A program made the position numbers and the translations under genes. From contig VXNZ01000014.1 in assembly GCA_009840355.1 (NCBI GenBank), positions 1-64,000 of the forward strand: a stretch of DNA of 64,000 nucleotides, in the 5' to 3' direction. Below, in pieces: positions 5,558-42,220 of the stretch. The notes under the pieces were generated by a model. That model ran no database searches and was not told where the DNA came from. It saw only the letters and a list, made by a program, of their open reading frames with translations. The first letter of the stretch is position 1; each line of letters opens with the position of its first letter. The DNA comes from Chloroflexota bacterium. Lineage in GTDB: Bacteria > Chloroflexota > Dehalococcoidia > Lucifugimonadales > JADFKI01.

Positions 5558-6349
5558 CTACACGACTGGCGATGTGCCGCCGTCGATGTTGACCGCTACG
5601 CCTGTGATGTAGGCGGCGCGGTCGGACACCAGGAAAGTCACGAGGTCGCCCGCCTCTCGCGCTTCGCCAACGCGCCCGATTGGGACGCGCTTGCCCATAT
5701 CTTCGTAGTACGCTTCAAGTGTGAGGTCGGAGTTTTCCTCGCGAGCGGATTCCCAGCGCCGTTCGTGCTGCCCTGCCTTGATAAGACCGATGCATACCGT
5801 GTTCACGAGGATGTTGTCGCCGGCGTAGTCCTTTGACATTTCCTTCGTGAGCGCGATGCCCGCCGCGCGGCTGACCGATGTCGGCACCGACCCTGCCGTC
5901 GGCGCCTTGCCGCCGGGCGTCGTGATATTCACGATGCGACCGCCGCCCTGCGCCTTCATCAGCGGAATCGCCTTGTTGGAGCAGCGGATTGCGCCGAAGA
6001 GCTTTAGCTCAAGGTCATATCGCCATACTTCGTCGGAGACATTCTCGAACAGGTTCGCCGCAGATGTGCCGGCGTTGTTCACCAGAATATCCAGCCTGCC
6101 GTACTTTTCCACGATGGCGTTGAACAGGTTGTCCACATCCTCGTCACTGGTCACGTCCGCTCGTATTGGCGTAACTTCGCCGCCTGTCGCCGCGCGAATT
6201 TCTTCCGCTGCTGCGTCCAGCACTTCTTGCCGGCGCGCGCAAATGACCACGCTCGCGCCTTCCGCGCAGAGCGAAGTCGCCGTGCCCTTGCCAATACCGT
6301 CGCTGCCGCCGGTTACGAGCGCGACCTTCCCGTTGAGTCCCATATCCAT
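5558..6349 (-). CDS. Short-chain dehydrogenase/reductase-fold protein lacking the usual catalytic Tyr-Lys
   Basis: This 263-residue Rossmann protein has the nucleotide-binding motif TGGSDGIG (residues 14-21), a conserved NNAG near residue 92 and a C-terminal VNIDGGTSPVV. It is close to the FabG/classical SDR group. Where classical SDRs have YxxxK, this protein reads PTSVSRAAGIALTKE, so the expected Tyr and Lys are replaced by Thr and Arg. The substrate and even the chemistry are therefore uncertain. AGGAG lies 12 nt before the ATG at 6349. The gene follows glcF by 128 nt on the same strand and may be co-transcribed, but an AACTG-type repeat lies in between. Confidence 0.85.
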   Translation of the reverse strand: MDMGLNGKVALVTGGSDGIGKGTATSLCAEGASVVICARRQEVLDAAAEEIRAATGGEVTPIRADVTSDEDVDNLFNAIVEKYGRLDILVNNAGTSAANLFENVSDEVWRYDLELKLFGAIRCSNKAIPLMKAQGGGRIVNITTPGGKAPTAGSVPTSVSRAAGIALTKEMSKDYAGDNILVNTVCIGLIKAGQHERRWESAREENSDLTLEAYYEDMGKRVPIGRVGEAREAGDLVTFLVSDRAAYITGVAVNIDGGTSPVV

Positions 6350-39798: not shown

Positions 39799-40257
39799 AT
39801 GCCACTTGTAGGCGTAATAATGGGCAGCAGTTCCGACGAGGCAGTCGTCGCAGAGACGGTCAGCGTTCTCGACCAGATGGGAATCGAGAACGAAGTTACG
39901 GTCGCGTCCGCGCACCGCACGCCGGAAAAGGTTATGGAGTATGTAACGACCGCGCGGGAACGGGGCATTGAAGTGCTAATAGCGGCTGCGGGCGGCTCTG
40001 CCGGCTTGCCCGGAGTAACGGCGTCTTGGACCACCCTGCCCGTCATCGGCATTCCGCTGCCCAGCAGCGACCTCAACGGCGTGGACGCGCTCTACGCCAT
40101 AGCGCAGATGCCGCCGGGCATTCCTGTCGCCTGCGTCGCAGTTGGCTCTTGGGGCGCGCGCAACGCCGCTTTCCTCGCTGCGCAGATTCTCGGCATCAAG
40201 CACGACGACATCCGCGCTGCATACGACGACTACCGACAAGGCTTGAAGAATCGCTAA
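39799..40257 (+). CDS. purE: N5-carboxyaminoimidazole ribonucleotide mutase PurE
   Basis: This 152-residue class I PurE moves the carboxyl group from N5-CAIR to C4. It shows IMGSSSDEAVV at the N-terminus, VASAHRTPEKV (His) and AAGGSAGLPGV. AAGGAG lies about 9-10 nt before the ATG. No purK is nearby. The next functional purine gene is purC, separated by a pseudogene and a padR module. Confidence 0.96.
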   Translation: MPLVGVIMGSSSDEAVVAETVSVLDQMGIENEVTVASAHRTPEKVMEYVTTARERGIEVLIAAAGGSAGLPGVTASWTTLPVIGIPLPSSDLNGVDALYAIAQMPPGIPVACVAVGSWGARNAAFLAAQILGIKHDDIRAAYDDYRQGLKNR

Positions 40258-40337: not shown

Positions 40338-40483
40338 ATAGCCACAATAGCTGAAACCATACTGCCCAACCGACTCTATTTGGGCAAGGTGGGCGAACCT
40401 ACGACCTTGGTGGCGGCTTATCTCTCATGGCAGCCACTGATCGCACATCCACTTTCGATGTCGTCCTGTCCATAGGCATATAA
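40338..40483 (+). pseudogene. purC: purC 5'-fragment pseudogene (frameshifted, truncated)
   Basis: The first part reads LPNRLYLGKVG; after a one-base deletion near 40396 the frame continues TYDLGGGLSLMAATDRTSTF, then DVVLSIGI and TAA. The live purC reads LPNRLYQGKVRDTYDLGDGL, then LLMVATDRISAFDVVLPTGI. The expected ATG is ATA (40338-40340). Homology stops at about codon 49. Many matching codons differ at third positions, so the copy is old or came from a different lineage. It sits where purC would follow purE in a pur operon, suggesting the original gene was lost here. Confidence 0.85.
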
Positions 40484-40584
40484 CCTTAATGGACACTCTT
40501 CTGTCGGATTTCCGCCTTGTGGTCCCACATCACGAAAGACATCGTCCCAAATCAACAACGCACCTAAATCACGCGCCCTGCCCC

Positions 40585-40614
40585 TTGACTTTTAGGAAGA
40601 TATATTCCTATAAT
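40585..40614 (+). promoter_or_regulatory. Near-consensus promoter with inverted-repeat operator in the spacer, leaderless padR
   Basis: TTGACT (40585-40590), 18 nt, TATAAT (40609-40614). The ATG of padR follows only 6 nt after the -10, so the transcript should begin at or next to the start codon. The inverted repeat TAGGAA-GATATA-TTCCTA (40593-40610) fills the spacer and overlaps the -10, a good site for autorepression. Confidence 0.75.
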
Positions 40615-40620
40615 GTGTTC

Positions 40621-40980
40621 ATGCGAAGAAAAGCCAACACCCTTCTACCAATTGAAGTCTCAATCCTTGACGCGGGCATCCGTTTGAGAACCGACGGACT
40701 GCCTAGTTTTCACGGCTTCCTCATAGCCAAGCAAATCAAGGAACGGGAGGGCGCGCGCCTGCTGACGGCGCACGGCACATTATACAAGGCGCTTGGAAGA
40801 CTGGAGAAAGCCAAACTGCTCCAAAGTAGTTGGGAAGACCCTCTCATAGCAGCCGAAGAAGGGCGTCCCAGGCGCCGCCTTTACATCGTAACGCCCGCCG
40901 GCGAAGCGGCTCTGGCAAAGGCAGTCCACGCGAGCGTCGGCGATGCTGGCGAAGCAAAGGGGGGACTCACGCTCGCATGA
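40621..40980 (+). CDS. PadR-family transcriptional regulator
   Basis: This 119-residue winged-helix repressor has the PadR pattern LLPIEVSILDAG, then FHGFLIAKQI, LTAHGTLYKALGRLEKAKLL (recognition helix and wing) and EEGRPRRRLYIVTPAG. No ligand domain is seen. ATG 40621 is chosen because conservation begins there and the promoter leaves no room for the longer frame. Its stop overlaps the next ATG (ATGA 40977-40980). The inverted repeat in its own promoter suggests autoregulation. Confidence 0.88.
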   Translation: MRRKANTLLPIEVSILDAGIRLRTDGLPSFHGFLIAKQIKEREGARLLTAHGTLYKALGRLEKAKLLQSSWEDPLIAAEEGRPRRRLYIVTPAGEAALAKAVHASVGDAGEAKGGLTLA

Positions 40981-41285
40981 TTGAAAAATCCGTTGGAATA
41001 GTTCCAAACCTAGTGAGAAACTGGGCGCGTGTGTACACATTCGGGCTTCCTTCTGAAATCCGCGAAGAAAGGCGCGCCGAGATAGAATCCGACCTTTGGG
41101 AACACATCCACGACTCGGAGTTCGGCAGAGACGCTCCTTCTCCTTTTTGCGCTCTGCACGCGCTCATCCGCCTGCTGGCGGGAGTGCCGGACGACCTGCT
41201 CTGGCGCATCGAGCAGACCGAAAGCCAATCTATGGAAAGAGACAGCCACATCCTGTCCATCAATACAAGTTCGGAGGTAAAACCA
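40977..41285 (+). CDS. PadR-partner domain with no stop codon, open into purC
   Basis: From ATG 40977, coupled to padR, 103 codons encode MIEKSVGIVPNLVRNWARVY, TFGLPSEIREERRAEIESDL and WEHIHDS, then LLAGVPDDLLWRIEQ. This resembles small proteins that often follow padR genes and continue into membrane helices. Here no helices follow and no stop occurs. After a short Ser/Thr stretch (SSEVKP) the frame runs straight into the purC start codon. A 394-residue fusion could be made, or purC may be translated separately from its own Shine-Dalgarno. It looks like a truncated partner gene joined to purC. Confidence 0.6.
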
Positions 41286-42161
41286 ATGACTACAATCCGA
41301 GATACCGACCTGCCCAATCGCCTTTACCAAGGCAAAGTCCGCGACACCTACGACCTCGGAGACGGCCTCTTGCTCATGGTAGCCACCGACCGCATCTCCG
41401 CATTCGACGTCGTGCTGCCTACCGGAATCCCGGAGAAAGGCGCCGTTCTGACGCAGATTTCCGAGTTCTGGTTCGACATGACGAAGGACATCATCCCGAA
41501 CCACTTCGTATGTCTCGCCACCGAGCGCGACGACCTCGGCATCTCCGACGAGCTTGCCCGCCGCTCTATGATCGTCAAGCGCGCCGACCGCATCGACGTC
41601 GAGTGCATCGTGCGCGGCTTCATCACCGGCTCCGCATGGGGCGAGTACCGCCGAACCGGTACCGTCGCCGGCGTCCAAATGCCCGAAGGCTTGCAGGACG
41701 GCGATATGTTCCCAGAGCCGCTCTTCACGCCCAGCACCAAAGCTGAAGAGGGACACGATGAGAACATCACCGTCGCCCAGATGGAAGACATGGTCGGCAA
41801 GGAACTTACCGAGCGACTCTCGCAGGCATCTATCGAAGTGTATTCCACCGCCCGCGACTACGCCCGGGAAAAGGGCATCATCATAGCCGATACCAAGTTT
41901 GAGTTCGGCATCATCGACGGCGAAATCTCGCTCATAGACGAGGTGTTGACTCCTGACTCCAGCCGCTTCTGGGACGTGGACGGCTACGCACCGGGCAAGT
42001 CGCAGCCCAGCTACGACAAGCAGTACGTCCGCGACTGGCTCGACGACGCTGGCTGGGATCACGAGCCGCCCGCGCCGGAGCTGCCCGACGATGTCGTTGC
42101 CAGCACTCATCAGCGCTACCTCGAAGCCTATCAAAAGTTGACTGGCAACGCACTATCCTAG
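41286..42161 (+). CDS. purC: Phosphoribosylaminoimidazole-succinocarboxamide synthase
   Basis: This 291-residue SAICAR synthetase joins CAIR and aspartate with ATP. It shows NRLYQGKVRDTYDLGDGLLL at the N-terminus, VATDRISAFDVVLP, the VECIVRGFITGSAWGEYRRTG block, and IADTKFEFGIIDGEISLIDE followed by VLTPDSSRFW. GGAGG lies 8 nt before ATG 41286, so independent initiation is likely even though the upstream frame is open into it. A decayed second copy of its first 49 codons lies about 0.95 kb upstream. Confidence 0.95.
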   Translation: MTTIRDTDLPNRLYQGKVRDTYDLGDGLLLMVATDRISAFDVVLPTGIPEKGAVLTQISEFWFDMTKDIIPNHFVCLATERDDLGISDELARRSMIVKRADRIDVECIVRGFITGSAWGEYRRTGTVAGVQMPEGLQDGDMFPEPLFTPSTKAEEGHDENITVAQMEDMVGKELTERLSQASIEVYSTARDYAREKGIIIADTKFEFGIIDGEISLIDEVLTPDSSRFWDVDGYAPGKSQPSYDKQYVRDWLDDAGWDHEPPAPELPDDVVASTHQRYLEAYQKLTGNALS

Positions 42162-42180
42162 ACAATCATGCATAAGAATC

Positions 42181-42203
42181 CCTTCCCCCATCAAGGGGGA
42201 AGG
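42181..42203. repeat. CCTTCCCCC palindromic element / hairpin after purC
   Basis: CCTTCCCCC (42181-42189), loop ATCAA, GGGGGAAGG (42195-42203), then CTAGGATATGGGTGA. The 9-bp perfect stem may terminate the purC transcript. A degenerate relative lies at 49507-49545. No T run follows, so a mobile palindrome is as likely as a terminator. Confidence 0.55.
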
Positions 42204-42220
42204 CTAGGATATGGGTGAAA

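Follow-up and report, generated by a model that had tools for sequence, protein, structure and literature searches.

In this study, we asked why the pur operon of a SAR202-type Chloroflexota bacterium should carry, between purE and purC, a second and broken start of purC with a regulator gene behind it. The window, that is, the whole stretch of DNA that was analysed, comprises 64,000 nucleotides of contig VXNZ01000014.1, and the genes, remnant, promoter, dyad and ribosome-binding site described here lie on the + strand. The gene order guaA-mazG-purD-purE-(cassette)-purC, obtained by tblastn in relatives, identifies the left neighbour of the broken start as purE (39799-40257), and the live purC, which encodes 291 amino acids, occupies positions 41286-42161 and is recognized by Pfam PF01259, NCBIfam NF010568 and the order of its orthologues. 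A short CCTTCCCCC...GGGGGAAGG hairpin repeat is found 3' of purC at 42165-42215.

A preliminary description of this DNA had proposed that a dead purC start follows purE, and we can confirm this. By alignment and blastn, positions 40338-40554 contain a decayed copy of codons 1-73 of purC. The local DNA alignment of this remnant with the live gene scores 79-87, far more than shuffled sequence: among 1000-2000 dinucleotide-preserving shuffles, the highest score was 29 when aligned with the purC start and 35 when aligned with the entire gene. The same pair is recovered with an E value of 2e-13 and 70% identity in a whole-genome blastn search and with an E value of 4e-18 across 197 columns in a self-blastn search. 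The ATA at the start position, the single frameshift, which we place near codon 20, the frequent third-position differences and the spacing of about 0.95 kb to the live gene (approximately 949 bp) are as they had been described. The homology had been thought to end at codon 49 (40483); however, it continues beyond the in-frame stops at codons 49 and 51 and reaches codon ~73 at 40554. The window thus contains a direct repeat of 197-217 bp with ~70% identity, formed by 40338-40554 and the start of purC from 41286.

The remnant combines homology to purC, disabling changes and the loss of codon-level constraint, as a pseudogene does. It might still be proposed that it acts as a leader peptide, a regulatory RNA or an N-terminal PurC fragment, and the remnants of two related species, G001 and G003, indeed differ from each other mainly at third positions, with reading frames of 83-86 codons spanning much of the remnant in G003 and G001. 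However, the remnant in the window's genome (G000) has two stops and a frameshift, that in G003 has frame-breaking indels, and in a further species, G002, only 49 nt are left. In addition, the differences between the G000 and G003 remnants are spread evenly across codon positions (0.26 at first and second and 0.30 at third positions, p=0.51), the pattern expected for dead DNA. A retained function is very improbable, and we regard the remnant as a decayed, non-functional purC start and as ordinary debris. The corresponding stretch in the relatives is purC-like and decaying and not conserved non-coding DNA.

Between the two copies of the repeat lie only padR and a second ORF, and no transposase or integrase gene is present there. 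Inverted repeats of at least 20 nt were not found at the cassette either, and a transposon or insertion sequence, which was considered as a candidate, does not fit, as it should have such a gene and terminal inverted repeats. The gene padR (40621-40980) encodes a protein of 119 amino acids with a PadR winged-helix domain (PF03551, E=8e-13, 48.6 bits with a cut-off of 27). It is preceded at 40585-40614 by a predicted sigma-70-type promoter, TTGACT-18-TATAAT, which agrees with the consensus at 11/12 positions in a consensus scan. Between its -35 and -10 elements, at 40593-40610, is the dyad TAGGAAGATATATTCCTA, which we presume from its sequence and placement to be an operator bound by PadR, and whose position is the same in G001-G003. 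Many padR relatives carry variants of this dyad, TAGG[AC]ATATATCT[TG]CCTA, and the promoter layout is similar upstream of most of the padR relatives compared, in several phyla. Within this PadR subfamily, the layout TTGAC-n-TAGG[AC]ATATATCT[TG]CCTATAAT with padR close behind is conserved in Chloroflexi, Acidobacteria and some Actinobacteria; loci that have it upstream of padR include the window (40585-40620), L071, L072, L111, L127 and others.

The second ORF (40977-41285; 103 codons), which we refer to as the prefix-domain ORF, overlaps padR by an ATGA, is in frame with purC and has no stop before it, and its 309 nt are free of indels in the four genomes that carry it. Purifying selection acts on padR, with dN/dS values of 0.06-0.18, and on codons 1-82 of the prefix ORF, with values of 0.13-0.19. 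The last 21 prefix codons, which form the linker to PurC, show no codon-level constraint (5, 7 and 6 variable columns by codon position), and read-through into PurC is therefore put forward as a possibility only. The live purC retains an ATG and a GGAGG of its own; this GGAGG (41273-41277), conserved in G001-G003, is its probable ribosome-binding site.

Searches of Pfam and NCBIfam gave no match to the prefix domain, including none to the HAAS and DUF1700-type partner domains of PadR proteins, and structure prediction gave a helical model of modest confidence, with a pLDDT of 70, for which no fold was assigned as the best PDB match had an E value of 1.6. It comprises ~80 residues (W..LYT.GL....R..RRAEIESDLWE ... 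R...G.P.D..WR; window 40977-41225) and also occurs at L111-L124 and L125-L133. Homologues of the domain occur in further genomes and phyla, where they follow padR and form the N-terminal part of membrane proteins, Kelch-repeat proteins and other proteins with very different C-terminal parts. In this genus, PurC occupies the place of the part that elsewhere follows the prefix domain.

The genome of the window, G000, was compared with four other species of its genus (G001-G004) and with G005-G007 of the same family, so that eight family genomes were searched. The padR module is found at the same place and in the same layout in G000-G003. Besides G000, the full remnant is present in G001 and G003, and G002 keeps its last 49 nt only; the junction at codon ~73 is identical in all carriers. 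As had been suggested, the remnant is tied to the padR module; the same cassette stands behind it in all four of them. In G002, most of the remnant is replaced by a repeat similar to the CCTTCCCCC...GGGGGAAGG hairpin (L054 4945-5000). The purC of G002 (L054, from 5783) is far more diverged from that of its sister species than its neighbours are and ends 10 residues early. In G004, which belongs to this genus, purE is separated from purC by a gap of 257 bp without purC homology, with neither cassette nor remnant, and purE and purC are adjacent in G005-G007. All four of these genomes thus have a single purC after purE and no padR in between, that is, they carry the target once and without the insert. 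The additional sequence that separates purE from purC in G046 and G049 is an ORF of 436 amino acids, which we take from its sequence to be purB, and is ordinary. Close PadR relatives are patchily distributed, in 14/393 genomes of the class at E<=1e-25, and a phylum-wide sample yielded no further close cassettes.

Two rival explanations bear on this distribution. The three other carriers (G001-G003) are Chloroflexi / SAR202 metagenome assemblies, which could raise the suspicion of an assembly or binning artefact; however, four genomes that were assembled separately and have diverged flanks all show this layout, and the chance of an artefact is negligible. It could also be argued that the whole of purC was first duplicated in tandem, that the cassette next entered one of the copies or the space between them and that most of the first copy was deleted. 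The same final layout would be predicted, and the remnant and the live copy of one genome are indeed old relative to each other. However, a tandem purC pair was found at the locus in 0/8 family genomes, the codon ~73 junction is identical in all carriers and the deletion is an additional step, and we consider such a course of events unlikely.

The history of the cassette differs from that of its surroundings. At fourfold sites, padR and the prefix ORF have diverged by 0.27, 0.20, 0.25, 0.21 and 0.18 in the five distant species pairs, and the flanking genes, calculated without purC, by 0.60, 0.56, 0.61, 0.56 and 0.53 in the same pairs. The difference has a Fisher p of 4e-9 to 3e-11 in these five of six species pairs, and only in the sister pair G000-G002 are cassette and flanks alike (0.24 and 0.28). 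The third-position GC of the cassette (0.54-0.65) is less extreme than that of most flanking genes, and strong codon bias is therefore no explanation for the low divergence. As the divergence of the cassette is far below that of its flanks, these sequence comparisons indicate that the cassette has passed between species after their separation.

The remnants themselves also differ in their history. Those of G000 and G003 differ by ~0.27 overall, which is close to the synonymous-site divergence of the cassette. The G001 remnant differs from both by 0.21-0.28 at first and second positions and by 0.56 at third positions (p=5e-7 and 1e-4), and this third-position excess indicates that it split from them while still a working gene. 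Within one genome, the remnant and the live purC differ by 0.48-0.56 at third positions (p = 9e-4, 6e-4 and 5e-6), in keeping with the earlier view that the remnant is not a recent tandem copy. This exceeds what decay since a common duplication would allow and suggests that the two purC starts come from different purC lineages of the genus, and a later exchange of alleles must therefore be joined to the duplication model. An exchange of purC alleles within the genus is supported by the sequences of the live genes, since purC of G000 and G002 differs by ~0.5 at fourfold sites, when their flanking genes differ by 0.28, which points to an exchange of purC up to the cassette border in one of these sisters. 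Support is weak both in the tree of the short remnant, with 75% for the grouping of G000 and G003 and lower values for most else, and in that of purC inside the genus, and no donor was picked from these trees. The signal of the remnant is limited to ~220 bp.

These data also bear on the explanation first offered for the locus, namely that the native purC was broken and that a diverged purC from outside came with the padR module and took over. The different lineages of remnant and live purC in one genome, and the exchange in G000 or G002 at the cassette border, are what such a replacement would lead one to expect. However, the live PurC proteins show a vertical-like pattern, being 84-91% identical inside the genus and 75-76% identical to the family; they group within their own genus, and their divergence resembles that of the neighbouring genes. 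Furthermore, the live purC starts lack the low divergence of the cassette, and purC therefore did not travel with it in all carriers. What finds support in the proposed diverged copy is a different purC lineage from within the genus, whereas a foreign origin is not supported; an exchange of purC beside the module is seen in G000 or G002. A disruption of the native purC is not required, because insertion of the cassette with target duplication would leave one complete purC throughout. We judge a takeover by an outside purC to be quite unlikely.

The best reading of the locus, and one that we consider probable, is an insertion with long target duplication, followed by spread through homologous recombination in the purC arms. 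According to this model, a self-regulated padR-prefix cassette would have inserted into the pur operon where purC begins and would have duplicated ~220 bp of that gene, approximately from its start codon to codon ~73, to produce the order purE - purC'(1-73) - padR - prefix - complete purC. The truncated left copy, being functionless, would then have decayed to become the left-hand scar of the insertion. Homologous recombination, with the purC segments on either side serving as arms, may subsequently have carried the cassette among congeners and mixed remnant and live purC alleles, which would account for the observed divergence patterns. In G000 and G003 the remnant would have been transferred along with the cassette, and the remnant of G001 would derive from another purC start, probably that of the resident gene. 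The lasting effect would be regulatory, in that purC, and probably the genes behind it, would be placed under the PadR promoter, and the prefix domain could be read on into PurC in the same frame.

A similar arrangement is seen in a second genome of the same class, G253, in which a padR-prefix cassette is bracketed by a direct repeat of 211 bp with 90% identity (L141:4012-4222 and 6013-6223). The gene downstream contributes its start codon and ~58 codons to the repeat, and a longer copy of this gene runs behind the cassette to the contig end; in the relatives of G253 the gene start is present once in each genome with a match. The product of this gene presumably resembles deoxyhypusine synthase-like proteins. 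Bracketing repeats not made of IS fragments were found at 1/31 other padR cassettes, a rate not clearly above that at random control positions (7/498, or 1.4%). The repeats that flank the cassette at L117 look like pieces of IS transposases and were left out of this count. G253 thus shows the same geometry as the purC scar, which is suggestive and could be due to chance, and we treat it as a lead and not as proof. It is tempting to go further and to regard PadR-prefix cassettes as a class of small transposase-less regulatory units that insert by long target duplication at gene 5' ends and put the whole of the following gene under a PadR promoter, with a sensor-like prefix that can be fused to the captured enzyme, here PurC, bringing an essential purine step under new control; this generalization is speculative and we hold it to be doubtful.

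The interest of the locus lies in the record of a regulator insertion and in the possible prefix-PurC fusion and not in the remnant itself. What is recorded would be the entry of a regulator cassette without transposition genes into an essential biosynthetic operon and its passage between species, with a broken gene start as the fossil. The in-frame prefix-PurC ORF provides a concrete case, open to testing, of a housekeeping enzyme with a sensor-like domain attached. Should further genomes bear out the parallel in G253, insertion with long target duplication would no longer be confined to restriction-modification genes but would include regulators, and captures of this kind could be looked for through direct repeats of gene starts.

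Three known systems invite comparison. With its frameshift, stops, lost start codon and neutral substitution pattern, the remnant is like other bacterial pseudogenes and gene remnants; it is unlike an ordinary one in that a 5' end only is left, tied to a mobile cassette and with a breakpoint common to several species. The placement of padR before a partner gene, with presumed control through an operator at its own promoter, recalls autoregulated PadR operons such as LmrR-lmrCD (PMC4534193), although at purC the place of a membrane protein or transporter is taken by a shortened prefix domain that continues in frame into PurC. Insertions with long target duplication are on record for restriction-modification genes, particularly those of Helicobacter (Nobusato et al., 2000, Gene 259:99; cited in PMC1643837 and PMC3154945). 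As far as that description is conveyed in the citing articles, the purC locus resembles it in having a gene unit between direct repeats of the target and a related genome without insert and repeat. Restriction-modification genes, whose presence is a usual association and not a strict criterion, are absent from the insert, which contains only padR and the prefix ORF. By the same accounts, our case is set apart from those insertions by a unit made up of a PadR regulator and a prefix domain, by a repeat that is old and decayed, and by the movement of the unit between species.
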